This document shows, in pieces, positions 2,515 to 32,457 of a DNA stretch of 64,000 bases. Below the pieces are notes generated by a model. The model ran no database searches, had not been told where the DNA came from, and saw only the letters and a program-made list of their open reading frames with translations. A program made the position numbers and the translations under genes. Each line of letters starts with the position of its first letter. Within the stretch, counting starts at the first letter, position 1. This DNA is from Armatimonadota bacterium (GTDB taxonomy: Bacteria; Sysuimicrobiota; Sysuimicrobiia; Sysuimicrobiales; Sysuimicrobiaceae), in assembly GCA_031432545.1 (NCBI GenBank), contig JAVKGX010000003.1, positions 121,861 to 185,860 of the forward strand. Reading direction: 5' to 3'.

Positions 2515-2517
2515 CCG

Positions 2518-5882: not shown

Positions 5883-5904
5883 CGTTTCGCTCCAGGCTCA
5901 CGCC

Positions 5905-6255
5905 TCACTTGAACATCGGGCGCAGCATCAGGAATGCGACCGGGGTCATCAGCGCCGCGTAGGCCGCCGCGCCCACCCAGAACATCCTGCGATACCATCG
6001 GGTTGCCCGCGGGAACAAATCGAGGATCATGATGATGACCCCGTTGCCGGCGTGGTAGACGACGGCGGCCACGAGCAGGAACTCCAGGGGTTTGAACCAC
6101 GGCTGGCGGTACAGCTCGATGGCCTTGTTGTAGGCTTCCGGGCCGTACATCAGCATGGCCGTCTCGACGATGTGCATGAACAGGAACAGCAGGATCGCCA
6201 CACCCGTGATCCGGTGCAGCACCCACGCCAGCATCCCAGGTCCACCTCGGTACAT
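5905..6255 (-). CDS. sdhC: Succinate dehydrogenase cytochrome b556 subunit
   Basis: A 116-aa membrane subunit. The N-terminal signature WVLHRITGVAI with the H-R pair and the following FLFMHI are typical of SdhC quinone-site residues. A second-helix histidine (YHAGNGV) is the expected haem b ligand. There are three membrane helices. ATG 6255 is preceded by a good GGAGG ribosome site 5 nt upstream. It lies 30 bp downstream of the GntR regulator, so the regulator and sdh genes are probably one transcript. Confidence 0.88.
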   Translation of the reverse strand: MYRGGPGMLAWVLHRITGVAILLFLFMHIVETAMLMYGPEAYNKAIELYRQPWFKPLEFLLVAAVVYHAGNGVIIMILDLFPRATRWYRRMFWVGAAAYAALMTPVAFLMLRPMFK

Positions 6256-13196: not shown

Positions 13197-14552
13197 GTGA
13201 TCCGGGCCCTCGTCCAACGGACCCGCCAACTGGCCAAGTGGCTGGTACCGGGCATCCGCGTCAAGCGCTACGTGGCGTTGGTGTTCGTGGGCGTATCGCT
13301 CGTCGCCGTCGGCGCCATCCTGCTCGCCGACGTGGTCACCGTCGGCGTCGCGCAGGTCCTGTACGCCATCGTCAGAGCGGCACTGTGGGTGTCGGGGGGC
13401 GAACGGTGGGGTTTGGTCGGCGCCGGCGCACTGCTGATCGCACTGGGCGTCTACTGCGTGTTCCTCGGACTGCGGGCGACGGTGCGGTCGGTCGCCGGAT
13501 TGTTCCTACCGCGCGGCGACCACCGATTGGCGGAGTTGATGGTCCAGCGCCGCGCCCTGGGGCGCGGGCCGCGGGTGGTCGCGCTGGGCGGCGGTACGGG
13601 TCTTTCCACGCTGCTGCGCGGCCTGAAGCGTTACACGATGTCGCTGACGGCGGTGGTCACCGTCTTCGACGACGGCGGCAGTTCCGGGCGGCTGCGGCGA
13701 GAACTGGGCATCCTCCCTCCGGGCGACATCAACGACTGTCTGGTCGCCCTCGCCGAGGCCGAGCCACTGATGACCCGGTTGTTCGAGTATCGCTTCGATC
13801 GGGGCGACCTGCGGGGGCACTCCTTTGGCAACCTGTTCTTGGCGAGCATGATGGGTGTGGGTGGCGATCTGGTGTCGGCGGTCCGGCTGGCCAGCCGAGT
13901 GCTCGCCATCCGGGGCCAGGTCCTGCCCGCCACGGTGGACAACATCGTGCTGTGCGCGGAGTTCCTCGACGGGACGACCGCCGAGGGTGAGTCGGCGATC
14001 CCGGCTGCCCGCAAGGCGATCCGCCGTGTCTATCTGAAACCTGCCGACGCGCGAGCGGTGCCCGAAGTGCTCGACGCGATCACCCACGCCGACCTCATCT
14101 TGCTGGGACCCGGCAGCCTGTTCACCTCGGTGCTGCCGAACCTGCTCGTCACCGGCATCGGCGATGCTCTGCGCCGCGCCGAAGCACCGGTGGTCCAGAT
14201 CGTCAACGTCATGACCCAGCCGGGCGAGACCGACGGGTTCCGCGCGTCGGACCACGTGCGGGCCGTCGTCGAGCACGCGGGGCCCATCGTCCGCGCCGCG
14301 ATCGTCAACGACCAGATGCCACGCAACGCCGTGCTCCTGCAGCGCTACCGCGGCGAGGGGGCCGTACCCGTCGAGCCGGATCTGGACCGCATCCGGCAGA
14401 TGGGCCTGGTGCCGTTCGCGTACGGGCTCATCAGCGAAACCGAACTGGTGCGCCACAATCCGACGAGCTTGGCCGAAGCGGTACTCGATGTGCTCGATCG
14501 CCTGTCCGGCGCCCGGCGCCGCGTCGCCCGCGTCAGCGTCATCAACCCATGA
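13197..14552 (+). CDS. yvcK: Gluconeogenesis/cell-wall factor YvcK (CofD-like), with N-terminal membrane segments
   Basis: A 451-aa protein. Residues about 20-95 form two hydrophobic segments not found in the shorter B. subtilis YvcK. From about residue 118 the CofD-like UDP-sugar-binding domain begins with VVALGGGTGLSTLLRGLK, followed by TVFDDGGSSGRLR, PPGDINDCLVALA, GHSFGNLFLASM and GPGSLFTSVLPNLLV. YvcK proteins bind UDP-GlcNAc and are needed for cell-wall precursor allocation on gluconeogenic carbon. The start is GTG 13197 next to the rapZ stop. The membrane extension suggests it is membrane-tethered. Confidence 0.92.
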   Translation: MIRALVQRTRQLAKWLVPGIRVKRYVALVFVGVSLVAVGAILLADVVTVGVAQVLYAIVRAALWVSGGERWGLVGAGALLIALGVYCVFLGLRATVRSVAGLFLPRGDHRLAELMVQRRALGRGPRVVALGGGTGLSTLLRGLKRYTMSLTAVVTVFDDGGSSGRLRRELGILPPGDINDCLVALAEAEPLMTRLFEYRFDRGDLRGHSFGNLFLASMMGVGGDLVSAVRLASRVLAIRGQVLPATVDNIVLCAEFLDGTTAEGESAIPAARKAIRRVYLKPADARAVPEVLDAITHADLILLGPGSLFTSVLPNLLVTGIGDALRRAEAPVVQIVNVMTQPGETDGFRASDHVRAVVEHAGPIVRAAIVNDQMPRNAVLLQRYRGEGAVPVEPDLDRIRQMGLVPFAYGLISETELVRHNPTSLAEAVLDVLDRLSGARRRVARVSVINP

Positions 14553-16538: not shown

Positions 16539-16568
16539 TTGACACCCCGCGCGATCGATCCGTATGAT
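16539..16568 (+). promoter_or_regulatory. Strong sigma-70-type promoter of the nuo membrane-arm operon
   Basis: Perfect -35 TTGACA (16539-16544), 18-bp spacer, near-perfect -10 TATGAT (16563-16568). Transcription would start near 16575, about 260 nt before the nuoA start codon. This is the best promoter match I found in the window. Confidence 0.75.
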
Positions 16569-16574: not shown

Positions 16575-16836
16575 GGGCCGCCGTGGGCTGAAAGTCAGAT
16601 CTGGCGCGGCATGCGGCGGTTCGCAGATCGGTTCCTTCGCCGTTGGGAACTCCCGATTCTTTGTGGGCGGTCAACGCTCCCTGCCCTGAGGCCGGCGTGG
16701 TTACAGACGAGCGCGTTGGACGGAAGGGATCGGCGCGCGCGATCGCTAAGAGTGGTCATGGGCCGGCCACGGGTGGTCGGCCGCCGCATCCGGCCAACGG
16801 GCGGTAGAGCGCCCTGACAGCTCAGCGGAGGTTGTG
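16575..16836 (+). promoter_or_regulatory. Long untranslated leader of the nuo operon
   Basis: About 260 nt without a credible coding region between the promoter and nuoA. Possible structures are GATCTG...CAGATC around 16597-16629 and a 9-bp hairpin GGCCGGCCA-cggg-TGGTCGGCC (16761-16782, one G-U pair). A small GAGC...GCTC stem ends just before the GGAGG ribosome site. No known riboswitch class is recognisable. It may have a regulatory role or simply a distal start site. Confidence 0.35.
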
Positions 16837-17193
16837 GTGCCCCTTGACTGGGTGTATGTGGCCGTGTTCGCGCTCGTCGGCGCCGCCATGGCAGCCCTCC
16901 CGCTGGCCATCGTTTGGCTGATCGCCCCCCGCAGCCAGTACCCGCAGAAGTTGTTGGCCTACGAATCTGGGATCGTCCCGTTCGGGGAGGCGTGGTCACA
17001 GGTCAACATCCGCTACTACCTGTTCGCATTGATCTTCCTCTTGTTCGACGTTGAGGTGATGTACATCTATCCCTGGGCCGTGGTGCTGCGCAGCTTGGGC
17101 ATGCAGGCGTTCGTGGCGATGGCGATCTTCCTCGTGTTGCTGTTCGTCGGACTGCTCTACGAGTGGAAGAAGGGAGCGCTGGAGTGGGTCTAG
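16837..17193 (+). CDS. nuoA: NADH-quinone oxidoreductase subunit A
   Basis: A 118-aa small membrane subunit of complex I with three helices. Hallmarks are KLLAYESGIVPFGEAWSQV, NIRYYLFALIFLLFDVEVMY and the tail EWKKGALEW. Start: two adjacent GTG codons (16834 and 16837). GGAGG at 16827-16831 is better spaced for 16837 (5 nt), so that is chosen. It is followed directly, with a 10-bp overlap, by nuoH; the usual nuoB, C, D, E, F and G are missing here. Confidence 0.93.
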   Translation: MPLDWVYVAVFALVGAAMAALPLAIVWLIAPRSQYPQKLLAYESGIVPFGEAWSQVNIRYYLFALIFLLFDVEVMYIYPWAVVLRSLGMQAFVAMAIFLVLLFVGLLYEWKKGALEWV

Positions 17194-18200
17194 GACAGGT
17201 CCTGGACGCGCTCTGGCGGATCGACCTCGTCCGCGCCCTGGTCGCGGTGGTGGTGGTCTTTACCTTCATCGCCGTCTTCGTGGCGATGTTTTTGGTCTTG
17301 ATGGAGCGAAAGGTCAGCGCCTGGATCCAGGCACGGATCGGGCCCAAGCACGTGGGGCCGCACGGAACCCTGCAGACCTTGGCCGATACGATCAAGCTGT
17401 TGCAGAAGGAGAACATCGTGCCCGCGCGGGCCGACGTGCTCCTGTTCTCCGTTGCGCCGGTCCTCGTGGCGGTCAGCGGGCTGCTGGCCTACGTGGTGTT
17501 GCCGTGGGGTCCGGGCGTGATCGTGCGCGATTTGAACGTGGGCCTGGTGTATTTCGCCGCGGTGCTGTCGGTCGGCGTCGTCGGGGTGCTGGTCGGCGGG
17601 TGGGCATCGAACAACAAGTACGCGCTGCTGGGTGGTTTACGGTCGGCGGCGCAGATGGTGTCCTACGAGATCCCGCTGGGGCTGGCGATCGCGACGATGG
17701 CAATCCTCACCGGGACGCTGTCGACCGTGCGCATCGTCGAGGCGCAACCGTATCCCTGGTACCTGTACCCCTTTGTGGCGATCAACGCGCTGGTGTTCCT
17801 GACCGCGGCGACGGCCGAGACCAACCGCATCCCGTTCGACCTGCCGGAGGCGGAGTCCGAACTGGTCGCCGGATACTTCTCGGAGTACACGGGCATGCGG
17901 TTCGCGCTCTTTCAGCTGGGCGAGTACGGTTCGCTGTTCGCGAGCTCCGCGCTGTTCGTCACGATGTTCCTCGGCGGCTGGCGTGGCCCGTTCGACCTGC
18001 CGCTGGTCGGACCGGTGGCCAGCGGCGTGTTCTGGTTCCTGTTGAAGAGCTACGCGATCGTGTTCTTCCTGATGTGGGTGCGCTGGACTTATCCACGCTT
18101 TCGGATCGACCAGCTGTTGAACCTTGCGTGGAAGATCTTGATCCCCGTGGGGCTGGTGAACCTGCTGATCGTCGGCTTTTTGGTGGCCCGGTGGGGGTGA
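17184..18200 (+). CDS. nuoH: NADH-quinone oxidoreductase subunit H
   Basis: A 338-aa subunit with eight or nine membrane helices that forms the quinone chamber between the peripheral and membrane arms. Signature stretches are MERKVSAWIQARIGPKHVGP, LADTIKLLQKENIVP, SAAQMVSYEIPLGLA, and the acidic loop ETNRIPFDLPEAESELVAGY. The start is GTG 17184, with AGGGAG 7-8 nt upstream inside the end of nuoA. All residues of the quinone-loop motif are visible, so the subunit looks functional. Confidence 0.95.
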   Translation: MGLGQVLDALWRIDLVRALVAVVVVFTFIAVFVAMFLVLMERKVSAWIQARIGPKHVGPHGTLQTLADTIKLLQKENIVPARADVLLFSVAPVLVAVSGLLAYVVLPWGPGVIVRDLNVGLVYFAAVLSVGVVGVLVGGWASNNKYALLGGLRSAAQMVSYEIPLGLAIATMAILTGTLSTVRIVEAQPYPWYLYPFVAINALVFLTAATAETNRIPFDLPEAESELVAGYFSEYTGMRFALFQLGEYGSLFASSALFVTMFLGGWRGPFDLPLVGPVASGVFWFLLKSYAIVFFLMWVRWTYPRFRIDQLLNLAWKILIPVGLVNLLIVGFLVARWG

Positions 18201-18212
18201 ACGGGGTGGATC

Positions 18213-18707
18213 GTGTCGGGTGAGGTGGTCGCGTTCTACATCCTCGCGGGCATGATCCTCGCCGGCGCACTCATCGTGGTCAACGCGCGCAACATCGTCC
18301 ACGCGGCGGTGTCGCTGATTCCTGTGCTGCTTGGCGTGGCAGGGCTGTACGTGCTGCTGCACGCCGAGTTCGTGGCGGTCGTCCAGATCCTCATCTACGC
18401 CGGGGCGATTACGGTTCTCATCCTGTTCGTGGTGCTGCTGACCGAGGGCGCGACCGGCATCCGTCGGCGCCAGCGCAACGAACAGGTCCCGATGGCCCTG
18501 GCGGCGTCGGGTGTGCTGGCCGCCCTGTTGCTGTGGCTGTACGCACGTACGAGTTGGCCCATGGGGGCCGCACCGCCCCCCGCCTACAACCCCGGCGCGG
18601 TGGGCGAGAGCCTGTTCGGTCCGTACGTCCTGGTCTTCGAGGTCGTCGGCATCGTCATCCTGGCGGCGCTGGTCGGCGCCATCGTCGTGGCGAGGCGCGA
18701 GGCATGA
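18213..18707 (+). CDS. nuoJ: NADH-quinone oxidoreductase subunit J
   Basis: A 164-aa membrane subunit with five helices. NARNIVHAAVSLIPVLLGVAG and the pi-bulge helix VVQILIYAGAITVLILFVVLL are typical. The start is GTG 18213, 12 bp after nuoH. The nuoI gene (two [4Fe-4S] clusters), which normally sits between nuoH and nuoJ, is not there. Confidence 0.94.
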   Translation: MSGEVVAFYILAGMILAGALIVVNARNIVHAAVSLIPVLLGVAGLYVLLHAEFVAVVQILIYAGAITVLILFVVLLTEGATGIRRRQRNEQVPMALAASGVLAALLLWLYARTSWPMGAAPPPAYNPGAVGESLFGPYVLVFEVVGIVILAALVGAIVVARREA

Positions 18708-19012
18708 TCGGCCTCAACCACTACCTGGTCGTCGGCGCACTGCTGTTCGCGATCGGGATGTACGGGGTCCTCACGCGGCGCAACGCGGTTGCCATCCTCA
18801 TGGGGATCGAGTTGATCCTCAACGCGGCCAACATCAACTTCGTCGCGTTCACGAAATTCGTCTCGCCGACGTTTGTCGCCGGCCACATCGCGGCACTGGT
18901 CATCATCACCCTGGCCGCCTGCGAGGCGGTCGTCGGACTGGCGCTGATCCTCAACCTCTACCGGCAGCGTGAGACGATCCAGGTCGACGAGATCAACATC
19001 ATGAAGTGGTAA
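18704..19012 (+). CDS. nuoK: NADH-quinone oxidoreductase subunit K
   Basis: A 102-aa subunit with three helices. The conserved glutamates of the antiporter-like channel are visible in LMGIELILNAANINFVAF and LAACEAVVGLALI. ATG 18704 overlaps the nuoJ stop (ATGA), indicating translational coupling. Confidence 0.95.
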   Translation: MIGLNHYLVVGALLFAIGMYGVLTRRNAVAILMGIELILNAANINFVAFTKFVSPTFVAGHIAALVIITLAACEAVVGLALILNLYRQRETIQVDEINIMKW

Positions 19013-19014
19013 CG

Positions 19015-21096
19015 ATGGGCGCCCTCGCTTGGCTGATCCCGCTGTTTCCGCTGGCTGCCTACGCCGTCCTGATCTTCCGGGGCCGCGCCCTGGGTGACCG
19101 CGCGGCCTTCGTGGCGATCGGAGCGATGTCGGTCTCGACCCTGTTGGCGCTGGCGATCCTGGGCGCGAAGGTCTTCGGCGCCCCGGATTTCGTATGGCGT
19201 GCCGCCTGGGCGGTGGGTGGAGATCGCGAGATCACGATCGGGTTCACGGTGGACAACCTGTCGGCGATCATGACCGCCATGGTCACGTTCGTCGGCACCC
19301 TGATCTTTGTCTACTCGGTCGGTTACATGCACGGAGATCCTTACTACAGTCGCTTCTTCGCTTTCCTGTCGCTGTTCTGCTTCGGGATGCTCACGATGGT
19401 CCTGGCCAACAGCTTCCTGCTGATGCTGATCGGCTGGGAGATCATCGGGCTGTGCTCGTACCTGTTGATCGGGTTCTACTTCCGCCGGAAGTCGGCCAAT
19501 GCGGCGCAGATCAAGGCGTTCATGACCACGCGCGTGGGAGACTTCCTGATGCTGATCGGCATCATGATGGTCTTCTGGCAGTTTGGTACCGTCGACTACC
19601 ACGCGGTGTTCGACGCGATCCGCAAGGGAGGCGAAGGTGCGGCGCGGACGGTGGCGTTGGGAGGCTGGCAGATCCCGCTGGTCACGCTCACAGCGTTGAT
19701 GATCTTCGGCGGCCCGATCGGCAAGAGCGGGCAGTTTCCCCTGCACGTGTGGTTGCCGGACGCGATGGAGGGTCCGACGCCCGTCAGCGCCCTGATCCAC
19801 GCGGCGACGATGGTGGCCGCCGGCGTCTACCTGGTGGGGCGAGCGTACCCGCTGTTCTTCTTTACGCCGCATCACGAGGCGCTGCTGTTCGTGGCATGGA
19901 TCGGCACGATTACGGCGCTGATGGCAGGACTGATTGCGCTGGCGCAGGACGACATCAAGCGCATCCTCGCGTACTCGACGATCAGCCAGCTGGGTTTCAT
20001 GATGGCGGGACTCGGGGTCCTGGGCTACGCGGCCGGTCTGTTTCATCTGCTGACGCACGCTTTCTTCAAGGCGCTGTTGTTTTTGGGCGCCGGCAGCGTG
20101 ATCCACTCGGTGCACACGAACAACATCAAGGAGATGGGCGGGCTGCGCCGCCACATGCCGGTCACCTTTTGGACGTTCGCCGCGGGTTTTTTGGCGCTCG
20201 TGGGAATCTTTCCGTTCGCGGGCTTTTGGAGCAAGGACGAGATCCTACTCGAGGCGTTTCACCACAACCCGGCGATCTACTACGCGCTGACGGCCGGGGC
20301 GTTTCTCACCGCGCTGTACATGTCGCGGCTGATGGCCTACACGTTCTTCGGGGCGTACCGAGGCACGAAGCACCCCGAGTCGGACCCCTGGCTCCCGGAG
20401 GACTACGGCCGGCACTCTTCGCTCCACGGCCCATCCCCCATGGGGCACGGGGCGACGTCCGGTGAGCACCGTCCCCACGAGAGCCCGCGCGTAATGACGG
20501 CGCCGCTCGTCGTGCTCGCAGCCTGCTCGCTCGTCGTCGGGTTTGTCGGTGCCCCCGGGACGTGGGAAAAGGGTTCGTGGATCCACCACTTCCTGGAGTT
20601 CGAGGGGTTTAAGGCGGCCGGGATCGAAGCGCCGGCGTTCTCGTGGCCACTGGCGCTGCGGTCCCTGGCCGCGGCGCTGGCAGGGGTGGGCGTCGCGTGG
20701 GTCGTCTACGGCCTGCGGGTGGTCACCAGCGACCGCATCCGCGCCTGGACGGGCCCCCTGTACGGATTCTTGCGCAACCGCATGTACTTCGACCATGCAT
20801 ACGGCCTCGTCTTCGTGCGCGGCGGCCTCGCACTGGCCAGTTTGGTGCGGATCTTCGACGAGCGTGTCGTCGACGGCATCGTGAACTTCGTCGGCTACCT
20901 GATCGTGGGCATCAGCCGGATCCACCGTTTCTTTGATACCTATGTGGTGGACGGCCTGGTCAATCTGATCGGAGTGCTGACGCGCTGGATCGGCCTGGGG
21001 CTCCGCTACGTGCAGACGGGCCGCGTATACAACTACATCCTCGTGGTGGCCGTGGGCTTGACCGTCGTCGTGATCGTGGGCCTGTGGCGACTGTAG
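19015..21096 (+). CDS. nuoL: NADH-quinone oxidoreductase subunit L
   Basis: A 693-aa antiporter-like proton pump at the distal end of the membrane arm. Signatures are IGWEIIGLCSYLLIGFYF, GPIGKSGQFPLHVWLPDAME, PTPVSALIHAATMVAAGVYL, and STISQLGFMMAGLG. The C-terminal lateral helix region is present (long tail after residue about 500). ATG 19015 is used; the in-frame GTG at 19006 overlaps the nuoK tail. A histidine- and proline-rich cytosolic loop lies near residues 470-495. Confidence 0.95.
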   Translation: MGALAWLIPLFPLAAYAVLIFRGRALGDRAAFVAIGAMSVSTLLALAILGAKVFGAPDFVWRAAWAVGGDREITIGFTVDNLSAIMTAMVTFVGTLIFVYSVGYMHGDPYYSRFFAFLSLFCFGMLTMVLANSFLLMLIGWEIIGLCSYLLIGFYFRRKSANAAQIKAFMTTRVGDFLMLIGIMMVFWQFGTVDYHAVFDAIRKGGEGAARTVALGGWQIPLVTLTALMIFGGPIGKSGQFPLHVWLPDAMEGPTPVSALIHAATMVAAGVYLVGRAYPLFFFTPHHEALLFVAWIGTITALMAGLIALAQDDIKRILAYSTISQLGFMMAGLGVLGYAAGLFHLLTHAFFKALLFLGAGSVIHSVHTNNIKEMGGLRRHMPVTFWTFAAGFLALVGIFPFAGFWSKDEILLEAFHHNPAIYYALTAGAFLTALYMSRLMAYTFFGAYRGTKHPESDPWLPEDYGRHSSLHGPSPMGHGATSGEHRPHESPRVMTAPLVVLAACSLVVGFVGAPGTWEKGSWIHHFLEFEGFKAAGIEAPAFSWPLALRSLAAALAGVGVAWVVYGLRVVTSDRIRAWTGPLYGFLRNRMYFDHAYGLVFVRGGLALASLVRIFDERVVDGIVNFVGYLIVGISRIHRFFDTYVVDGLVNLIGVLTRWIGLGLRYVQTGRVYNYILVVAVGLTVVVIVGLWRL

Positions 21097-21177
21097 CCGG
21101 TCGCGGGTCGAGGAACGGGGTTTGAGGATGCGGTTGGGAGGAAGTGTGCAGGAGATCGCAGCCGAGGAGCCGCGCGC

Positions 21178-22686
21178 ATGCCGATTTTGACCATCACGTT
21201 GTTTTTGCCGTTGCTGGGTGCGTTGGTGGTGCTGTTCTGGCCCAGGGACGATCACGCGAGGATCCGCCGGTTGACACTGGGCTTTTCGATCGCGACGTTC
21301 GTGGCGTCGCTGCTCATCCTCACACAGTTCTCGTTCGGCCAGCGCGGACTGCAGCTGATCGAGCAGGCACCGTGGATCCCGTTCGTCGGCATCCAGTACA
21401 AGGTCGGCGTCGACGGCATGAGCGTGGCGCTGGCGATCATGACGGCGCTGCTGACGGTGATCTCCGTCGTGTACTCCTTCCGCGAGAATCATCGCGTAAA
21501 AGAGTACAATCTGCTGTTTCTGATCCTGGCAACCGGGATGCTCGGCGTCTTCTTCGCGCTGGATTTCTTCCTCTTCTACGTCTTCTGGGAGCTGACGCTG
21601 GTCCCGATGTACTTTCTCATCGGCATCTGGGGAGGGCCGAGGCGGGAGTATGCGGCGATCAAGTTCTTCCTGTACACGCTGGTCGGGTCGTTGGCGATGC
21701 TGCTCGGCATCCTCCTCCTGTACTTCAACCTGCCGCCCGACGGGCGTACGTTCGACGTGGTGCGGATCATCGAGGCCAAGCCCCTGATGGACAAGGGGCT
21801 GGTAGCCCAGCTCGCGTTTTGGGGATTCTTCCTGTCGTTTGCGATCAAAGTGCCGATGTGGCCCTTCCACACGTGGTTGCCGGATGCGCACGTGGAGGCA
21901 CCGACGGCGGGATCGGTGATCCTGGCGGCGGTTCTGCTGAAGCTGGGCACGTACGGGTTCGTGCGGTTCAGCCTGCCGATCTTTCCCGATGTGTTCGCCC
22001 AGCATGCGTGGTTCATCGCCGTCCTGGGCGTCATTGGGGTGATCTACGGTGCCCTCGTGGCAATGGCGCAGACCGACCTGAAGAAGCTCGTCGCGTACTC
22101 CTCGGTCAACCACATGGGCTATGTGATGCTGGCGATCGCGGCGGCGGCCGCCGCGTACGGACGCCCCGAGCTGGCGAACGCGGCGGCCACGGCGCTGAAC
22201 GGCGCGACGATGGAGATGCTCGCGCACGGCGTGATCACCGGCGCCCTGTTCTTGATCGTGGGCGTCATCTATGACGACCGCACGCACACGCGGGGTGTGG
22301 ACGACTTCGGGGGCCTGTGGGCGGTGCTGCCGAAGTACGGAGCCGTCACGATCACCGCCATGTTCGCCTCCCTGGGCCTTCCCGGACTAATGGGTTTCGT
22401 CGCGGAGTTTCTGATCTTCGTCGGCGCGTTCAGCATCTTCCCGATCCTCACCGCCCTCTCGGCGCTGGGCATCATCATCACCGCGGCGTTCTTTCTGTGG
22501 ACGATCCAGCGGATCTTCTTGGGGTCGATCAACCCGAAGTGGGCGAATCTGCCGGACCTGGATCGCCGTGAGTCGTGGTCGTTGGTGCCGCTGGTGGTCC
22601 TGATGATCGTCTTCGGCGTGTATCCGAAGCCGCTGCTGGAACTGATCAACCTGACGTCCAGCCACGTCGTGGCGATGTTGCGATGA
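21178..22686 (+). CDS. nuoM: NADH-quinone oxidoreductase subunit M
   Basis: A 502-aa antiporter-like proton-pumping subunit with about 14 helices. Signatures are VFWELTLVPMYFLIGIWGG, FAIKVPMWPFHTWLPDAHVE, APTAGSVILAAVLLKLGTYG, and SSVNHMGYVMLAIA. It follows nuoL after 81 nt of non-coding sequence and overlaps nuoN by 4 bp. Channel glutamate and lysine positions look intact. Confidence 0.95.
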   Translation: MPILTITLFLPLLGALVVLFWPRDDHARIRRLTLGFSIATFVASLLILTQFSFGQRGLQLIEQAPWIPFVGIQYKVGVDGMSVALAIMTALLTVISVVYSFRENHRVKEYNLLFLILATGMLGVFFALDFFLFYVFWELTLVPMYFLIGIWGGPRREYAAIKFFLYTLVGSLAMLLGILLLYFNLPPDGRTFDVVRIIEAKPLMDKGLVAQLAFWGFFLSFAIKVPMWPFHTWLPDAHVEAPTAGSVILAAVLLKLGTYGFVRFSLPIFPDVFAQHAWFIAVLGVIGVIYGALVAMAQTDLKKLVAYSSVNHMGYVMLAIAAAAAAYGRPELANAAATALNGATMEMLAHGVITGALFLIVGVIYDDRTHTRGVDDFGGLWAVLPKYGAVTITAMFASLGLPGLMGFVAEFLIFVGAFSIFPILTALSALGIIITAAFFLWTIQRIFLGSINPKWANLPDLDRRESWSLVPLVVLMIVFGVYPKPLLELINLTSSHVVAMLR

Positions 22687-24137
22687 ACCCCGCCGACCTC
22701 CGCTGGATCGTCCCCGAGATGGTCGTAGCCGGCCTGGCGGTCGTCCTGCTCGTGGCCGATGTGTTCCTGCCCAAGGAACACAAGCGGCTGGTGGGCACCT
22801 TCGCCCTGCTGGGGCTGATCCCGGCGGTCGTCGCCTCCGGCCTGCTGCTGGGAACCCTTCGTGCCGCCGGCCTGGACGGCGTCCGCATCTTCGCCGACAC
22901 CTACACCGTCGACACGTTCGCCGTGTACTTCAAGTTCATCGCGCTGATCGCGACGGCGCTGGTGATCCTCGTCGGCATGGACTACTTCCCCGGGCGGACG
23001 GCCTACGTGGCCGAGACCCACGTGATGCTCGTGTTCACCTGTTTGGGCTTGATGCTTATGGCGGGGGCGTCCGACCTGATTCTGCTGCTGCTGAGCATCG
23101 AGTTCGTCTCGCTGGCCTCCTACCTGCTGGCCGGGTACCTGAAGGCGGACCCCAAGAGCAACGAGGCGGGTGCCAAGTACTTCCTGTACGGGGCGGCGAC
23201 GACCGGCGTGATGTTCTACGGTTTCTCGCTGCTGTATGGCCTGACCGGTTCCATGAGCCTGTATCACATCGCCGATCGGCTGGGGGAGGCCGGGCCGCTG
23301 GCCTACGCCGCGGTTGCGATGGTGCTGGTGGGCTTTGGGTTCAAGATCTCGATGGTGCCCTTCCACCAGTGGACCCCGGACGTCTACGAAGGCGCACCGA
23401 CGCCGGTCACGGCGTACTTTTCGGTCGGACCCAAGGCCGCCGGTTTCGCCGTCCTGCTGCGGACGCTGGTCGTCGCCATACCGACCCCGCAGATCGATTG
23501 GACATTGCTGATCGCCGTCCTGGCCGCGCTGTCGATGACGGTCGGCAACCTGCTGGCGCTGGTGCAGCGCAACATGAAACGCATGCTCGCCTACTCCAGC
23601 ATCTCCCACGCCGGCTTTTTGCTGATCGGCGTCGCGGCCTGGGAGTCGGCGTGGGCGCGGCCGGGCCTGCTCGTCTACCTGCTGGCCTACCTGTTCACGA
23701 ACCTGGGAGCGTTCTTCGCCGCGATCGTCGCCGCGGAGGCGACCGGCTCCGACGAGATCCCCGACCACGCCGGGCTCAGCCGCCGCGCGCCCTGGGTCGC
23801 CTTCGCCATGGCGGTCTTCATGCTGTCGCTGACCGGGATACCGCCTACGGCGGGGTTCTTCGGAAAATTCTATCTGTTCGCCGCGGCGGTGGACGGCGGG
23901 TTGCTCTGGCTGGCGGTCGTCGGTGTCGTCAACAGCGTGGTTTCTCTGTATTACTACGTGGGGGTCATCCGGGCGATGTACCTGATGCCTCCCCCGGTGG
24001 CGGCTCCCGTCACGGAGACGCCCGGACTGCGGGCGGGGCTGGCGGTCGCCCTGACCGGGACGCTCGTCATCGGCCTGTACCCGCAGCCGTTCTTGCTGCT
24101 CATAGACTCCGCGAGACGACTGTTGGCCGGCCCCTGA
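22683..24137 (+). CDS. nuoN: NADH-quinone oxidoreductase subunit N
   Basis: A 484-aa antiporter-like subunit, last gene of the nuo cluster. ATG 22683 overlaps the nuoM stop (ATGA). Signatures are LLSIEFVSLASYLLAGYLKA, GFGFKISMVPFHQWTPDVYE, APTPVTAYFSVGPKAAGFAV, YSSISHAGFLLIGVA, and LTGIPPTAGFFGKFYLFA. With A, H, J, K, L and M it completes the full set of seven membrane subunits. Confidence 0.95.
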   Translation: MNPADLRWIVPEMVVAGLAVVLLVADVFLPKEHKRLVGTFALLGLIPAVVASGLLLGTLRAAGLDGVRIFADTYTVDTFAVYFKFIALIATALVILVGMDYFPGRTAYVAETHVMLVFTCLGLMLMAGASDLILLLLSIEFVSLASYLLAGYLKADPKSNEAGAKYFLYGAATTGVMFYGFSLLYGLTGSMSLYHIADRLGEAGPLAYAAVAMVLVGFGFKISMVPFHQWTPDVYEGAPTPVTAYFSVGPKAAGFAVLLRTLVVAIPTPQIDWTLLIAVLAALSMTVGNLLALVQRNMKRMLAYSSISHAGFLLIGVAAWESAWARPGLLVYLLAYLFTNLGAFFAAIVAAEATGSDEIPDHAGLSRRAPWVAFAMAVFMLSLTGIPPTAGFFGKFYLFAAAVDGGLLWLAVVGVVNSVVSLYYYVGVIRAMYLMPPPVAAPVTETPGLRAGLAVALTGTLVIGLYPQPFLLLIDSARRLLAGP

Positions 24138-24296: not shown

Positions 24297-24668
24297 ATGG
24301 CAGAGGGCCGCGCGCACCAGTCCAGGCCGAACATCTTGCAGTTGATCGCCCAGAGGGAACAGGAGCTCGAACAGCAACTCGCCCAGGCCAAAGCGGAGGC
24401 CGAGCGGATCGTCGCCGAAGCGCACGCGGAGGCCGAGCGGATCCGCGAGCGCGCGCGCCGGCAGGTCGCTGAACTCCAGCGCGAAGCGGAGCGGCGCGGC
24501 CGCGAGGAGGCACGGGCGATCGAAGAGGAGGTCGTGCGGCGCGCGCAGGAGGAGGCCGAGCGCATTCGCGAGCGCGCGCAGGAACGGTTCGAGGAAGCCG
24601 TGCGTACGGTCGTGCAGGCGGTGCTGCGCGGGCTCGACGAGCAGGCGGCCGAGCGCGGCGACGGGTGA
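24297..24668 (+). CDS. atpH: V/A-type ATPase peripheral stalk subunit G/H
   Basis: A 123-aa protein that is almost entirely charged coiled coil (residues about 15-115, repeating A-E-A-E-R-I and R-E-R-A patterns). It forms the peripheral stalk heterodimer with subunit E. It is the first gene of a nine-gene operon whose order G/H-I-K-E-C-F-A-B-D equals that of Thermus. Coiled-coil sequence alone would not prove the function; position does. ATG 24297 follows 159 nt after nuoN. That gap holds no gene, and I saw no convincing promoter in it. Confidence 0.85.
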   Translation: MAEGRAHQSRPNILQLIAQREQELEQQLAQAKAEAERIVAEAHAEAERIRERARRQVAELQREAERRGREEARAIEEEVVRRAQEEAERIRERAQERFEEAVRTVVQAVLRGLDEQAAERGDG

Positions 24669-24708
24669 GGGCGTTGGGCGGACGCGCGCCCGAGCGGGTG
24701 GTGATCGG

Positions 24709-26706
24709 ATGATCGTAGAAATGAGCCGGGTGATCGTCCTGGGTCCCAAGCGTCTGCTGGGACAGGTGACGGAGGCGATCCAGCGGGTGGGCGTGATGCA
24801 CGTCGACCGCGTCGAAGCGGAAGAGGTCCCCTCCGTCCGGCCGTTGGAGCCCGGCAGCGAAGAGGAAGCCCGCCGCCGGCAGCTGGAGGCGCTGTCGTCC
24901 CGCGTCGGGGGACTGCTGGCCCTGCTGCCGCGCGTCGGGGGGGAGCAGGAGATCCCGGATCTGTCCGGGCGGAGCCTCGAGGAGGTCGAGGCACTGCTCG
25001 AGCCGATCGAGCGCGAGGCCCGGGATCTCACCCGGCGCCGCCTGGAGGCGGAAGAAGAGAGGGAGCTGATCGCGGCCTACGAGAACGCGGTGCGGGTCCT
25101 GTCTCCCCTGCTGGGCGCACTGTCGGACAGCAAGCACTTCGAGACGTACGGCTTCGTGCTGAAGGGCAAGGCTCTGGACGCCGTCGCCGGCCTGCATAAG
25201 GAGCTCAACCGGCTGACCGAAGGCCGCGTCGAGGTGGTCAGCCGGCAGGTCGACGAGCGCCACGTCGGCGTCGTGGTAGCCTTCCACCGGCGCGACGCGG
25301 AAGCCGTGCGGTCGTTTCTTCAGCGGGCCAGCATCAGCGAGTTGCGGCTGCCGGCGAAGTTCGTAGGCCGGCCGGCGGCGGAGGCCATCCAGGAGATGGA
25401 GCGCCGGCGCCAGGCGCTCCCGCAGGAGATCGCCGAACTCGCACGTCTGCTGGAAGGCCTGAGCCGGCGTGCCCGGGCCACGGTCCAGGCGATCGAGGCG
25501 TATGTGCGCGACGAACTCGGCAAGCTCCAGGTCCTGCCACGCTTTGCGCAGTCGCGCTACACCTTCATCGTCCACGGGTGGGTGCCCACGCAGAAGGTGG
25601 GGCAGCTGCGCGGGGTGCTGCACCGGCAGTTCGGCGACGAGATCGTCGTTTACGACGCGCCTGCAGATCCCCACGACCACCACGAGGCCGCGCGTGTGCC
25701 GGTCATCCTGCAGAACCCGCCCTGGGCACAGCCGTTCACCCTCCTGCTGGGGCTGTTCAAGCCGCCCCGGTACGGGTACCTGGACCCGACGATCTGGGTG
25801 GCGATCTTCTTTCCCATTTTCATCGGGATGGTGATCGGGGATGCCGCCTACGGCCTGCTGTTCTTCTGGATGGGTTGGGGGTTGCGTAAGCGCGCGCGGG
25901 CCGGGGTCCCGCTGGGAGGTACGCCCCCCCGCGACCTCGCGGATCGGATCTTCCGCCTGCTCAACATCCGGATCGCTCCGCCTACCCTGGATGCGATCTC
26001 CTGGGTCGTGCGCGTCTGCGCGGCGTGGGTGATCCTGTTCGGTGTGCTGTACGGTGAATTTTTCGGCAACCTGATCGAACACCACTTCCACCTCGAGCCA
26101 ATCTTCAACCGCGTCCACAACACCGACGCGTTTTTGCGGCTGATCTTCGGCTTCGGGATCGTACAGGTGTTCTTCGGCCTGGGGCTGCACATGCTCGGCG
26201 CCTTGCGGCACCGCAACTGGTTCCACACGCTGGAGGCGCTGGCGCTGGCCGCGGGCGGCGCGGCCCTGCTCGTGTTCTTGGCCGCGCGCGGAGGGTTCTT
26301 CCCGGCGGAGTTTGCGCCGGTGGCCGGGCTGCTGGCGCTGGCGTTCGGGATCATGTTTGTGGCGGTGTTCTTCGTCCGGGCCGGGTCGGTGCTGGAGAAG
26401 ACGCTGTTGCCGCTGGAGTCGTTCTCGGCGCTCGGCCACATCCTCTCCTACGCGCGATTGTTCGCCCTCGGGCTGGCCGCGGCGCTGCTGGCCAACGTGG
26501 CCAACGAGCTCGGTGGCCAGGCGGGGCCGCTGATCGTGGGCATCTTCTTTGGCATCTTCATCCAGTTGTTCTTTGTGCTGCTGACCCTGATCGGGCACGT
26601 CATCCAGCCGGCCCGTCTCAACTGGGTCGAGTTCTTCACAAAGTTCAAGTACCATTCCGAGACCGGCGAGAAGTACCAACCATTCCAACGTGCGGGAGGT
26701 GAGTAG
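24709..26706 (+). CDS. atpI: V/A-type ATPase membrane subunit I (subunit a)
   Basis: A 665-aa stator subunit providing the ion half-channels. The N-terminal soluble half (residues about 1-330) has the family start MSRVIVLGPKRLLGQVTEAI and coiled-coil stretches. The C-terminal half has seven or eight helices, beginning near PTIWVAIFFPIFIGMVIGDA and including GVLYGEFFGNLIEH and [19 protein letters not shown] with the essential arginine. It ends at 26706, directly before the K subunit start. Confidence 0.94.
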   Translation: MIVEMSRVIVLGPKRLLGQVTEAIQRVGVMHVDRVEAEEVPSVRPLEPGSEEEARRRQLEALSSRVGGLLALLPRVGGEQEIPDLSGRSLEEVEALLEPIEREARDLTRRRLEAEEERELIAAYENAVRVLSPLLGALSDSKHFETYGFVLKGKALDAVAGLHKELNRLTEGRVEVVSRQVDERHVGVVVAFHRRDAEAVRSFLQRASISELRLPAKFVGRPAAEAIQEMERRRQALPQEIAELARLLEGLSRRARATVQAIEAYVRDELGKLQVLPRFAQSRYTFIVHGWVPTQKVGQLRGVLHRQFGDEIVVYDAPADPHDHHEAARVPVILQNPPWAQPFTLLLGLFKPPRYGYLDPTIWVAIFFPIFIGMVIGDAAYGLLFFWMGWGLRKRARAGVPLGGTPPRDLADRIFRLLNIRIAPPTLDAISWVVRVCAAWVILFGVLYGEFFGNLIEHHFHLEPIFNRVHNTDAFLRLIFGFGIVQVFFGLGLHMLGALRHRNWFHTLEALALAAGGAALLVFLAARGGFFPAEFAPVAGLLALAFGIMFVAVFFVRAGSVLEKTLLPLESFSALGHILSYARLFALGLAAALLANVANELGGQAGPLIVGIFFGIFIQLFFVLLTLIGHVIQPARLNWVEFFTKFKYHSETGEKYQPFQRAGGE

Positions 26707-26707
26707 G

Positions 26708-27028
26708 TTGAAGCGAGCGTTGTTCGTCGTGGTCGTCGCGCTCACGGTGGTGGCGGTGGTGGCGAGTGGGGCGCTGGCGGCCGAGGCACCTGCGGCGCCG
26801 GGGGCAACGGGGCTGAACGCCGGCCTGCTGGGGATCGCCGCGGCGCTGGCGGTGGCGTTCGGCGCGGTCGGCACGGCGTGGGCCCAGTCACGGATCGGAT
26901 CGGCCGCTGCTGGCGCCATGGCGGAGCGCCCGGAGATCGGCGGTCTGATGCTGGTCTTTTTGGCGCTGCCCGAGACGATGATCATCCTCGGGTTCCTGGT
27001 GGCGTTCTTCTTGATCGGCAAGATCTAG
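26708..27028 (+). CDS. atpK: V/A-type ATPase rotor ring subunit K/L
   Basis: A 106-aa c-ring subunit. The start is TTG 26708, chosen because GGAGG lies 8 nt upstream (26695-26699); an earlier in-frame GTG at 26690 has no ribosome site. The N-terminal 25-30 residues form a cleavable-looking signal peptide (ALFVVVVALTVVAVVASGALA), as in Thermus. A two-helix hairpin follows. The ion-binding glutamate is in the second helix, FLALPETMIILGF, resembling the proton-type Thermus ring (LLLPETLVIFG). Confidence 0.92.
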   Translation: MKRALFVVVVALTVVAVVASGALAAEAPAAPGATGLNAGLLGIAAALAVAFGAVGTAWAQSRIGSAAAGAMAERPEIGGLMLVFLALPETMIILGFLVAFFLIGKI

Positions 27029-27155
27029 GCCGAAACGGAGCGAGCCGGGGGGACGCGCGTTGCCGCCGGCGGGCTCCCCGGGCGGATCCGGCAGGTGATC
27101 CGCCGCGAATCGTCACACGCCGCCGCAGACGGGATGCCCTGGGAGAGGGTACGCA

Positions 27156-27761
27156 ATGGCGACGGCAACGGAAGCGAGGACGGGCATGGACTCTGAACTG
27201 ATCGCGCTCCTCGAGCAGGAAGCGAATGCCGAGCGCGAACGGATCCTCACCGAGGCCCGACGGCGCGCCCAGAAGATCGTCGAGGACGCTCAGGCCGCTG
27301 CGGACGAGCAGATCGCGTCCCAGCGGCGCCGCGTCGACGCCGAGGTGGAGGCCGCGCGTGTGCGCGCGCGCGGGACGAGCAACCTGCGCGCGGCCTCGGT
27401 CCTGCTCCAGGCGAAGGACGAGACGATCGCATCGGTCTTCGCCGCCGCCGAGCGCGAGTTGGATCGGATCGCGTCTGATCGCCAGACGTACGAGCGCATC
27501 CTGGGGCGACTGCTCGCGGAGGCGGCGGAGGGCGTCGGCGGCCCCGTCGTCGAGTGCGCGGAAGAGGACGTGGCGGCCGTGCAGGAGACGGCGCGTCAGC
27601 TGGGTCTTGACGCAGAGGTCCGCCCGTCCCGTGACCTCCGTCGCGGCGTCCGCGTCCGCAGCGTGGACGGTCGCTTCGTGGTGGAGAACACCCTGCGCTC
27701 GCGGCTGGAGCGTGCGAAGGCGGTGCTCGTCGCTCAGGTCGCCGAACTCCTATGGGGCTAG
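27156..27761 (+). CDS. atpE: V/A-type ATPase peripheral stalk subunit E
   Basis: A 201-aa protein. The N-terminal half is a coiled coil (residues about 12-85) that pairs with subunit G/H. The C-terminal globular domain ends with the family-typical DLRRGVRVRSVDGRFVVENT and LRSRLERAKAVLVAQVAELL. ATG 27156 has GGGAGAGGG upstream; ATG 27186 is an alternative start. A 127-nt non-coding gap separates it from the K subunit. Confidence 0.9.
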   Translation: MATATEARTGMDSELIALLEQEANAERERILTEARRRAQKIVEDAQAAADEQIASQRRRVDAEVEAARVRARGTSNLRAASVLLQAKDETIASVFAAAERELDRIASDRQTYERILGRLLAEAAEGVGGPVVECAEEDVAAVQETARQLGLDAEVRPSRDLRRGVRVRSVDGRFVVENTLRSRLERAKAVLVAQVAELLWG

Positions 27762-27767
27762 CCCGGG

Positions 27768-28796
27768 ATGCCGGACGACTTCGGGTACATCAACGCACGG
27801 GTCAAGGGCATGCGGTCCCGGTTGTTGCTGCCCGGCCGGATAGAGGAACTGCTGGCGCTGCCCGACCTCGACGGCTTGCTGGCGGCGCTGGGCAACACGC
27901 CCTATGGGCCCGAACTGCAAGAAGCCCTGACGCGCTATCAGGGCATCCGCGCCGTGGACGAAGCGCTGATGCAGCACTTCCAGAAGAACGTGCGCCGGAT
28001 CCTCTCGTTCGCCGAGGGCAGGGCCAGGCAGCTGATCGAAGTCGTGTTGATGGACTGGGACCTCCACAACCTGCGTGCCGTTCTGCGGGCCAAGCACGCC
28101 GGCCGCAACCCGGAGGAGGTCACCGAGAACCTGGTGCCCGCTGGCCAGCTGACCGAGGTGCGCCTGCGCGAACTCGCCCAGCAGCCCGACGTCGCGGCGA
28201 TCGCCTCCACACTGTCGACGTGGGGACACCCGCTGGCGGAGGCGCTGGTGGAGGGGCTGCGGGACTACCAGGAGACGAAGGACCTATTGGCGCTGGAACT
28301 CGGACTGGACCGCCACTACTTCGAGTGGGCGCTGCGGATGGCACGCGGATCCGGTCGCAGTGAGAGCGTCGTGCGCGAGATCGTCCAGATGGAGATCGAT
28401 CACACCAACGTCAAGACGGCGCTGAAACTGCAGCGGATCCCGGACCTGCCGCGTGAGGACAGGCGCCGTTTCTTCCTCCCGGGTGGGGCCGTGGTCTCAC
28501 CGGAGGTATTTTTGAACCTGGCCGATCCGCAGACGGCGGAGTGGGGCACCCGGGAGCTGCGCGCCCGCGGCATCCATCCGGAGGGCAGCACGATTGCCGA
28601 CCAGGAGCGGTCGTTGGACGAGGAGTACGCGCGGCATCTGGCGCGCCTGTACCTGGGCGACCCGCTGGCCATCGACGTGGTGATCGGGTTTGTCGCGATG
28701 CTGTACAGCGAGATCCGCAACCTGCGGCTGATCGCCCGCAGCAAGGTGCTGGGCATCCCCCGCGACGTCGTGCGCAGGGAGATGGCCCTTGTGTAG
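27768..28796 (+). CDS. atpC: V/A-type ATPase subunit C (rotor cap, subunit d)
   Basis: A 342-aa helical funnel protein linking the central shaft to the membrane ring. It begins DFGYINARVKGMRSRLL and ends RNLRLIARSKVLGIPRDVV, both typical of the subunit C/d family, which has three similar helical lobes. It starts 6 bp after subunit E. Confidence 0.92.
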   Translation: MPDDFGYINARVKGMRSRLLLPGRIEELLALPDLDGLLAALGNTPYGPELQEALTRYQGIRAVDEALMQHFQKNVRRILSFAEGRARQLIEVVLMDWDLHNLRAVLRAKHAGRNPEEVTENLVPAGQLTEVRLRELAQQPDVAAIASTLSTWGHPLAEALVEGLRDYQETKDLLALELGLDRHYFEWALRMARGSGRSESVVREIVQMEIDHTNVKTALKLQRIPDLPREDRRRFFLPGGAVVSPEVFLNLADPQTAEWGTRELRARGIHPEGSTIADQERSLDEEYARHLARLYLGDPLAIDVVIGFVAMLYSEIRNLRLIARSKVLGIPRDVVRREMALV

Positions 28797-28832
28797 GAAC
28801 GCGATGAGCGATCAGCCCGCACCAGGCACCTC

Positions 28833-29153
28833 ATGGCCACCCGGATCGCGATCCTGACCGATCCCGAGACCGCCACCGGTTTCCGGCTGGCCGGCGTCGA
28901 GGTCTTTGAGGCGGACACGCCGCAGGCGGCGCTGGAAATTCTGCGCAGCCTGATGTCCGGGGACTACGGCCTGGTCGCGGTCAACGAAGCGCTGCTGGCG
29001 GGGACGGAAGACGAGCGGGCCCGCCTGATGCGCGGCCGCGACATGCCGATCCTCGTGCCGTTCCCGGCCCCGAAGGCCCAGCTCGAGTCCGGGGAGGAGT
29101 ACATCGCCCGGCTGGTCAAGGAGAACATCGGGTTCTACGTGAAGCTGAAGTAG
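28833..29153 (+). CDS. atpF: V/A-type ATPase subunit F
   Basis: A 106-aa Rossmann-like shaft subunit that modulates ATPase activity. The start MATRIAILTDPETATGFRLA and the following GVEVFEAD match the family, as does the C-terminal EEYIARLVKENIGFYVKL. It is located between subunits C and A as in Thermus. Confidence 0.92.
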   Translation: MATRIAILTDPETATGFRLAGVEVFEADTPQAALEILRSLMSGDYGLVAVNEALLAGTEDERARLMRGRDMPILVPFPAPKAQLESGEEYIARLVKENIGFYVKLK

Positions 29154-29171
29154 GACGAGGGAGGGTACACC

Positions 29172-30944
29172 ATGGCCAGCGCTGGCCGAATCGTCAAGAT
29201 CTCCGGCCCGGCGGTGATCGCCGAGGGGATTCCCGGGGCACGGATGTACGACATCGTGAAGGTCGGGCAAGAGGGGCTGCTCGGCGAGATCATCCGCCTC
29301 GACGGCCCGACGGCGTTCGTCCAGGTCTACGAGGACACCTCGGGCCTATACGTCGGCGAGCCGGTCGTGTCCACGGGCGGACCGCTGATGGTCGAGCTCG
29401 GCCCCGGGATGTTGAACGCGATCTACGACGGCGTCCAGCGCCCGCTGAACGTCATCCAAGAGCGCGAGCAAACCCCCTTCATCCGCCGCGGTGTGGTCGT
29501 CCACAGCATCGATCGGGAGCGCACGTGGGAGTTTGAGCCGGGGGTAGCACCCGGTGACGAGGTCGGCCCCGGGGACGTGCTGGGCACCGTAAGGGAGTTC
29601 ACGTTCACGCACCGCATCCTCGTCCCGCCAGACCACCGCGGGGGCCGGATCGCCGACGTCCGGGCCGGTTCGTACACGGTCGAGGCACCCGTCGTCCGGT
29701 TCGAGGACGGATCCACACTCAGTATGCTGCACCGGTGGCCTGTGCGGCAGCCGCGGCCCGTCCGGCGCAAACTCGATCCACGCGAGCCGTTCCTGACTGG
29801 CCAGCGGATCTTCGACGTGCTGTTCCCGATTGCGATGGGCGGGACGGCGGCGATCCCGGGTCCGTTCGGATCCGGGAAGACCGTCATGCAGCAGTCGCTC
29901 GCCAAGTGGGGCAACGCGCAGGTGATCGTCTACGTCGGGTGCGGAGAGCGCGGAAACGAGATGACCGACGTCCTGGTCGAATTCCCGGAACTCGAAGACC
30001 CGCTCACCGGCCGTCCTTTGATGGAGCGCACCATCCTCGTCGCGAACACGTCGAACATGCCGGTGGCCGCCCGCGAGGCCTCGATCTACGTCGGCGTGAC
30101 GATGGCCGAGTACTTCCGGGACCAGGGCTATTCGGTGGCGCTGATGGCCGACTCCACGAGCCGCTGGGCCGAAGCGCTGCGGGAGATCTCCTCGCGTCTG
30201 GAGGAGATGCCCGCCGAGGAAGGCTACCCGCCCTATTTGGCCGCGAAGCTGGCGGCGTTCTACGAGCGGGCCGGCCGCGCCGTGCTCGTCGGGAAGCCCG
30301 AGCGCAACGGATCGATCACGATCATCGGCGCCGTCTCCCCGCCGGGCGGCGACCTGTCCGAGCCGGTCACCCAGTCGACGCTGAGGATCGTGGGCACGTT
30401 CTGGTCGCTGGACGCCAGCCTGGCCAACCGCCGGCACTTCCCGGCGATCAACTGGAACCGCTCGTACAGCCTGTACGCGGTCGGGTTGGAGCGCTGGTAT
30501 CGGGAGAACGTAGCCGAGGACTTCGTCGAAGCCCGCAACGAGATCTCCGCGCTGCTGGCGCGGGAGGCGGAGCTGCTCGAGATCGTCCAGCTCGTCGGTC
30601 CCGACGCGCTGCAGGACGAGCAGCGTCTGGTGGTCGAGGTCGGGAAGATGATCCGCGAGGACTTCCTGCAGCAGTCGGCCTACTCGGACGTAGACGCCTA
30701 CTGCCCGCCCGAGAAGTCCTACGGCATGGCCAAGGTGATCCTCGCCTTCTACCACGCCGCCTCCGATGCGCTGCGCCGCGGGGCGATGACGATCGACGAT
30801 CTGCTCAACCTGCCGCTGCAGGCGGAGATCGCGCGGCTGAAGGAAGTGAGGCGCGAAGACTGGGAAGCCCGCTATACGGACATCATGAACCGGATCCCGC
30901 AGGCGTTCGGGGCGGCGGTCCCCGCGGCGGCGACGGGGGCATGA
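29172..30944 (+). CDS. atpA: V/A-type ATPase catalytic subunit A
   Basis: A 590-aa catalytic subunit. It has an N-terminal beta barrel, the non-homologous bulge region (residues about 115-190), Walker [10 protein letters not shown] near residue 236, the catalytic glutamate region [13 protein letters not shown] and Walker B-type [16 protein letters not shown]. Length and motifs match the Thermus A subunit. It starts 18 bp after subunit F. Confidence 0.97.
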
Positions 30945-30956
30945 GGGAGGCCGGCG

Positions 30957-32381
30957 ATGGAACTGGCGACGAAACGGTATCAGTCCCTCAGCTACATCTC
31001 GGGTCCGCTGCTGTTCGTGGAAGGTGCGCGCGACCTCTCCTACGGCGCGATCGTCAACATCCACGTCGGAGACGGCAGCGTGCGCGGCGGCCAGGTGATC
31101 GAGGTGTCCGAGAAGACCGCGGTCATCCAGGTGTTCGAGGAAACCCGCGGGCTGGACCTGGCGACGACCTCGATCAGCCTCCGCGAGGACGTGGCCCGCA
31201 TCGGCGTCAGCCGTGAGATGATCGGCCGCCGGTTCAACGGGCTCGGGGAGCCGATCGACGGCCTGCCGCCGATCATCCCAGAAAAGCGCGTTCCCGTGAT
31301 CGGTTCGCCCATCAACCCGGTGGCGCGCGAGAAGCCCGCGGAGTTCATCCAGACCGGGATCAGCACGATCGACGGCCTGAACACGTTGGTGCGGGGGCAG
31401 AAGTTGCCCATCTTCTCGGGATCGGGCCTGCCGGGCAATGAGATCGCCGCGCAGATCGCGCGGCAGGCGAAGGTCCCCGGACAAGAAGAGGCGTTCGCCG
31501 TCGTGTTCGCCGCGATGGGGATCACGCAGCGCGAAGCCTCGTTCTTCATCGAGGAGTTCGAGTCCACGGGTGCGCTGAGCCGTTCGGTGGTGTTCATGAA
31601 CCTGGCCGACGATCCAACGATCGAACGGCTGATGACGCCGCGCGTGGCGCTGACGACCGCGGAGTACCTCGCGTTCGAGCTGGACACCCACGTGCTGGTG
31701 ATCCTCACGGACATGACAAACTACTGCGAGGCGCTGCGCGAGATCGGCGCCGCGCGTGAGGAGATCCCCGGCCGTCGTGGGTATCCCGGGTACATGTACA
31801 CCGACCTGGCCACGATCTACGAACGGGCGGGCAAGATCCGCGGGAAGAAGGGGTCGATCACCCAGATCCCGATCCTGTCGATGCCCGACGACGACATCAC
31901 CCACCCGATCCCAGACCTCACCGGCTACATCACCGAGGGGCAGATCCTGTTGAGCCGGGGGCTGCACCGCCAGGGCATCTATCCGCCGATCACGCCCCCG
32001 GGATCCCTGTCACGGCTGATGAACAACGGGATCGGAAAGGGCCGGACGCGGGAGGACCACAAGCAGGTCTCCGACCAGCTCTACTCCGCCTACGCGAACG
32101 GGCTGGACCTGCGGCGGCTGGTGGCGATCATCGGCGAGGAAGCTCTGACCGACCTGGACCGGCTGTACCTGAAGTTCGCCGAAGAGTTCGAGCGCGTCTT
32201 CATCGGTCAGGGCAACACGGACCGGTCGATCGAGGAGACGCTGACGCTGGGATGGGGGCTGCTGTCGGTGTTCCCCAAGACCGAGCTCAAGCGGTTGAGC
32301 CAGGATCACATCAACAAGTACTATGGTGCGGCGATGGAGGAGATCTGGGGCCGAAAGGGAGATCGGTTGAGTCAGATGTGA
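30957..32381 (+). CDS. atpB: V/A-type ATPase non-catalytic subunit B
   Basis: A 474-aa subunit paired with A in the hexamer. As expected for B it lacks a true P-loop ([18 protein letters not shown] replaces it). Nucleotide-site arginine region [20 protein letters not shown] and the [20 protein letters not shown] block are present. It starts 12 bp after subunit A. Confidence 0.97.
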
Positions 32382-32457
32382 GCGAGCAGCCCCGGCGAGA
32401 CGCCGTGGCGGCCGACGTCGAAGCGAGGAAGTCCCGGTACGGGCTCCGGACAGATTG

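Follow-up and report, generated by a model that had tools for sequence, protein, structure and literature searches.

Complex I without NuoE, NuoF and NuoG (the N-module) is common, and in cyanobacteria and chloroplasts it is driven by ferredoxin. What donates electrons to N-module-free complex I has long been debated, and cells with both NADH-linked and N-module-free versions provide a natural comparison for this question. The donor of a Desulfitobacterium complex I lacking NuoEFG, for example, is unknown and is perhaps ferredoxin (PMC11238625).

Splits of complex I genes have also been published. Salinispora carries, beside a complete nuo operon, partial NDH-1 operon 2, which consists of exactly seven membrane genes (PMC3314556), and a nuoAHJKLMN partial operon also occurs in marine Streptomyces and Kocuria (PMC6676996). 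A split 2M complex I, in which nuoBCDI stand apart from the membrane genes, is described for Chloroflexi in PMC7117926, which cites Chadwick et al. 2018. Neither N-module-free complex I nor splits of this kind, known from marine actinomycetes and Chloroflexi, are therefore new in themselves.

The DNA analyzed here comes from phylum CSP1-3, which has 44 genomes in GTDB R220 (PMC11974145) and was named Sysuimicrobiota in PMC11604079. In the main text of the latter paper on the phylum, the term nuo is absent and complex I is mentioned once, so the pair of enzymes considered below, both of which occur in nearly every CSP1-3 genome, appears to be undescribed. We propose, with a probability of roughly 85%, that the genome encodes a second complex I, one of 11 subunits that lacks the N-module: seven nuo genes in this DNA would specify its membrane arm (P-module), and its Q-module (NuoB, D, I and C) would come from a different contig, C8. 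We refer to these two groups of genes as set 2 and to the complete nuoA-N operon of the same genome as set 1. What is new is the fixation of the arrangement throughout the phylum, the gene order B-D-I-C and the constant neighbors of the membrane cluster, yvcK and a V-type ATPase operon.

Set 2 resembles each of the described systems in part. It has the same eleven subunits as the Desulfitobacterium enzyme (PMC11238625), no N-module and ferredoxin as the proposed donor, but is encoded at two loci alongside a full 14-subunit enzyme rather than in one operon. In gene content, its membrane cluster is like those of the actinomycetes, with genes for exactly seven membrane subunits, accompanied by a complete nuoA-N operon (the latter stated for Salinispora); however, the actinomycete clusters have a hypothetical gene between nuoA and nuoH, which overlap here, and are patchily distributed, whereas the present cluster is fixed in its phylum. 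As in the Chloroflexi enzyme, B, C, D and I are encoded away from the membrane subunits, yet that enzyme, being of the 2M type, has a second NuoM, between NuoL and NuoN, and a fused nuoCD, whereas here the cluster has one NuoM and the peripheral genes are in the order B-D-I-C, with C last. The likeness to cyanobacterial and chloroplast NDH-1, compared by core subunits, lies in the lack of NuoEFG and in NuoD, for which the nearest solved structures are those of NdhH from cyanobacteria and chloroplasts. The structures nearest to set 2 NuoH are mitochondrial, followed by chloroplast and cyanobacterial ones, so only NuoD leans towards NDH-1 of the latter two.

The window, i.e., the whole 64,000-nucleotide stretch of DNA that was analyzed, lies within contig C3 of a 2.19-Mb genome (21 contigs, rated 100% complete). 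The cluster and its surroundings contain the following features.

13197-14552, +, yvcK homologue, a constant upstream neighbor and not part of the enzyme (tblastn in related loci and HRbin32)
16539-16568, +, candidate sigma-70-like promoter upstream of nuoA (11/12 matches; weak evidence)
16834 or 16837-17193, +, nuoA (set 2), start GTG at 16834 or 16837 (ORF, NCBIfam NuoA)
17184-18200, +, nuoH (set 2), quinone-site membrane subunit (NCBIfam NuoH above cut-off)
18213-18707, +, nuoJ (set 2) (NCBIfam NuoJ)
18704-19012, +, nuoK (set 2) (NCBIfam NuoK; both membrane Glu motifs present)
19006-21096, +, nuoL (set 2), antiporter-like pump subunit (NCBIfam NDH_I_L above cut-off)
21178-22686, +, nuoM (set 2), antiporter-like pump subunit, single copy (NCBIfam NDH_I_M above cut-off; Glu and Lys motifs)
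22683-24137, +, nuoN (set 2), antiporter-like pump subunit (NCBIfam NuoN above cut-off; Lys motifs)
24297-33102, +, V/A-type ATPase operon (H, I, K, E, C, F, A, B, D), a constant downstream neighbor and not part of the enzyme

An earlier note, made from the letters of the DNA, had described this cluster as exactly the seven membrane subunits A-H-J-K-L-M-N with short overlaps, and the description was borne out: reading of the ORFs at 16834-24137 (+) found 7/7 intact, and NCBIfam assigned each to its named Nuo subunit. The nuoH frame is open from GTG 17163, and its 10-bp overlap with nuoA is counted from GTG 17184; J/K and M/N overlap by ATGA and K/L by 7 bp, while gaps of 12 bp and 81 bp separate H from J and L from M. 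The same note's statement that peripheral subunits are absent, even as remnants, also stood, as the genome's own B, C, D, E, F, G and I proteins, searched against all six frames of the complete window, gave a best E value of 0.17. An assembly break was ruled out as the cause of the split, both loci being internal to their contigs (the membrane cluster in C3 and B-D-I-C in C8), and chance is excluded by the conserved gene order of 20 related genomes. The promoter search found 1 candidate against 0.8 expected in shuffled sequences.

The genome was searched for further nuo genes, a check that the earlier note had proposed, and sets were found on C1 and C8. The locus at C1:443.8-458 kb, when read, proved to be a complete nuoA-N operon of 14 genes, whereas C8:45358-48254 contains, by NCBIfam, only nuoB-D-I-C, i.e., four peripheral genes and none for E, F or G, flanked by murA on one side and a gene for a membrane-anchored SoxC/SorA-like molybdopterin protein on the other. 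NuoD accordingly occurs twice in the genome (C1 and C8), as do NuoA and NuoH, with one adjacent pair in the window and the other pair 6.7 kb apart within the complete operon; the single NuoF is inside that operon. Beyond the complete operon there remain one A, H, J, K, L, M and N in the window and one B, C, D and I on C8, i.e., one each of the subunits of an 11-subunit complex I. None of the E, F and G that a 14-subunit set would include is encoded at either locus. The claim that the peripheral arm is made from another locus thus agrees with the genome, in which the only other B/C/D/I set belongs to the complete operon. It is this gene counting that suggests assembly of the window and C8 products into one complex.

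Directly 3' of the complete operon are FixC- and FixX-like genes of the ETF:quinone oxidoreductase type (L013 36-1689; C1:458036-459689). Such genes adjoin the complete operon in at least four relatives from three families (L170, L175, L176 and L177; FixC in part of L172).

Set 2 of this genome and of most relatives retains the sequence motifs that a working enzyme needs for its N6 and N2 clusters, quinone site and pump channels. The Fe-S ligand motifs of NuoB and NuoI are present in 19-20/20 relatives and in the genome itself, as is the NuoD quinone-site motif GPQHPSTHG (19/20 relatives). NuoA has YESG in 21/21 relatives and FD[VIL]E in 16/21; ERK, QxRxGP and PFDLPEAE are conserved in NuoH; WE..G..SY, GKSxQxP and DIKR are present in NuoL; and the pump Lys/Glu motifs are conserved in most relatives, where some misses of short motifs may reflect loose patterns. 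In several genomes of family f4, set 2 NuoH matches PF00146 in two pieces (G014:C15:33048-34172, G017:C9:87352-88449), which suggests an insertion, specific to this family, in the later part of the protein.

The distribution of the two halves was analyzed in 43 genomes of the phylum from seven families, of which 42 have NuoA and 28 are at least 90% complete. NuoA and NuoH are neighbors, with 36-236 bp between the matches, in 39 of the 42; reading of contig edges raises this to 41/42 by adding G012 (A and H 291 bp apart) and G022, in which NuoH runs off the contig just past NuoA, and the remaining genome, G018, is fragmented. A second NuoA-NuoH pair, 6.3-6.9 kb apart and thus, by coordinates alone, of the full operon type, is also found in 34 genomes. 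Twelve full operons read end to end or nearly so were complete, except that NuoE was under the search cut-off in two. NuoC of the C8 type occurs in 40/43 genomes, including 28/28 of those at least 90% complete, and the order B-D-I-C was seen in 20/20 loci read. No well-assembled genome of the phylum lacks either half. The earlier note had named a split that is standard in the phylum as a reason to abandon its reading; since the split is indeed standard (41/42 genomes with NuoA, seven families), the surprise of a single genome is gone and the observation becomes a trait of the phylum.

The surroundings of the two loci are also conserved. In 20 related loci, as far as each reaches, yvcK stands before the seven-gene cluster and the V-type ATPase operon after it; subunit I of this ATPase is named by NCBIfam, and the location of the operon is shared by every related locus reaching that far. 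The closest named record among the matches listed, Bacterium HR32 (HRbin32; 65-84% identity over the seven proteins), shares the yvcK-nuoAHJKLMN order, and HRBIN32 is a genus of CSP1-3 (PMC12416667). Outside the phylum, NuoA adjoined NuoH in none of the 79 loci listed in an arbitrary scan; a Chloroflexi locus (L116) has the order A-C-H-J-K-L-M-N, with NuoD on another contig. In one genome (G026, L060 12012-19000), the V-type ATPase at the usual position is far more divergent (26-58%) than those of the other genomes and was perhaps replaced in place.

B-D-I-C mostly has SUF iron-sulfur assembly genes upstream and a molybdopterin gene downstream, with ubiE and murA in place of the SUF genes in the window's own family. 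The downstream gene, 3' of nuoC in most families (L014 10521-12188 on C8; L149-L165), encodes a membrane-anchored SoxC/SorA-like molybdopterin oxidoreductase with about 32-55% identity outside the own family. We know of no link between such proteins and complex I. Two genomes have, in addition, a third, distant pair of NuoH-like and NuoC-like proteins (G027:C10:124090-127538 and G029:C12:13861-17404; E about 1e-31 and 1e-6), perhaps from a group 4 hydrogenase-like complex.

The relationship of the two sets was examined with FastTree and midpoint rooting, using an arbitrary sample of loci from outside the phylum. Set 2 was monophyletic (1.0) and outside the 14-subunit clade in both the B+D+I and the H+M+N tree, although its sister group differed between them, whereas set 1 nested within that clade (supports of 0.97-0.99 and 0.955-1.0, respectively). 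L121, a cluster of the 11-subunit type by gene spacing, falls inside the 14-subunit clade. Within the phylum, the trees of the two halves of set 2 shared 6/10 splits, which probably reflects low resolution at deep branches and is not clean support for pairing; we therefore dropped tree congruence as a proof that the halves belong together. Co-occurrence is no test of pairing either, because both halves are present everywhere.

These data bear on three other explanations of the cluster. That it is a spare or decaying duplicate had been the expected conclusion should a complete 14-gene operon be found elsewhere, and such an operon does exist in the genome. However, 7/7 genes of the cluster are intact, its clade is separate and monophyletic, the proteins of the two sets share 34-57% identity, and the cluster has been retained in 41/42 genomes of seven families, all of which makes a spare copy scarcely credible. 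By its sequences, set 2 is instead a distinct paralogue of the 14-subunit set with a B-D-I-C arm of its own. It is also very unlikely that the cluster acts by itself, with no electron-transfer arm, as an Mrp-like ion pump or antiporter. L, M and N are antiporter-like, and a role as a pump in adaptation to the sea is discussed by Penn and Jensen for the partial operon of seven genes in Salinispora (PMC3314556). Here, however, NuoH and NuoA are intact, and these subunits form the quinone site and the connection with the peripheral arm. The cluster includes NuoA, H, J and K, whereas an Mrp-type cluster would have MrpA-G without NuoH or NuoA; a matching B-D-I-C set occurs in every good genome; and a separate Mrp-type cluster is located at C1:90.9-95.3 kb.

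The remaining alternative concerns the N-module. The split set might borrow NuoE, F and G of the complete operon to form a 14-subunit NADH dehydrogenase, in which case both versions would oxidize NADH. A complete NuoEFG is encoded in the same cell, and nuoEFG at a separate locus is known, e.g., in Desulfurobacterium (PMC12724263). On the other hand, the sole E-F-G set is situated in the operon of the other complex, the NuoI proteins of the two sets are only 34% identical, and set 2 branches outside the 14-subunit clade, so we consider this sharing unlikely.

If set 2 is an N-module-free complex I, as we favor, NuoI would be the entry point of electrons, with reduced ferredoxin or a comparable carrier as their most likely source. 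From there they would travel via the N6 clusters and N2 to the NuoD/NuoB/NuoH site, where menaquinone would be reduced, and would power the pumping of ions by L, M and N. The reduced ferredoxin could be supplied, for instance, by two enzymes of the 2-oxoacid:ferredoxin oxidoreductase family, whose genes are both present in the genome. NADH, ferredoxin and F420 had all been suggested as inputs. Ferredoxin appears the most plausible of these; as to NADH, the genome has no second NuoF, and F420 is unlikely, as no FrhB/FpoF-type protein (PF04432), such as an Fpo enzyme would need, had a match in the genome. The phylum would thus have one complex I that is driven by NADH and one that is not obviously so.

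No dedicated donor gene adjoins B-D-I-C. A YumC-like ferredoxin-NADP reductase is encoded near it in several relatives, but was rejected as a dedicated or general partner, being missing in the own genome and in 9/28 good genomes, and the apparently conserved cluster of such neighbors turned out, on full ORF reading, to mix ferredoxin-NADP reductases with lipoamide dehydrogenases.

The earlier note went further and suggested a modular complex I, whose peripheral arm is regulated or exchanged separately. Nothing in the data shows this: the arrangement is constant in 41/42 genomes, and its constancy indicates only that both halves are kept. A broader version, in which two complex I enzymes operate throughout the phylum, one driven by NADH and the other by ferredoxin or another carrier, and independent loci for the arms let the cell alter their ratio or give the input arm another partner, seems rather doubtful to us. 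The split itself shows only that complex I genes can stay stably unlinked along the boundary between the Q-module and the P-module.

Other parts of the window also contain genes of metabolic interest. Genes of the succinate dehydrogenase/fumarate reductase type occupy 65-6255 (-); they encode two flavoprotein subunits, of 575 and 633 aa, but a single Fe-S subunit, together with anchors of both the Sdh_cyt and the FrdD type, and two adjacent enzymes may be represented. At 42819-46029 and 54604-59528 there are genes for an FdrA-like CoA ligase, AllG, a cytosine/purine permease, an amidohydrolase, a cyclase and a CoA transferase, and the presence of BMP-type ABC transporters with these catabolic genes suggests purine or pyrimidine breakdown.
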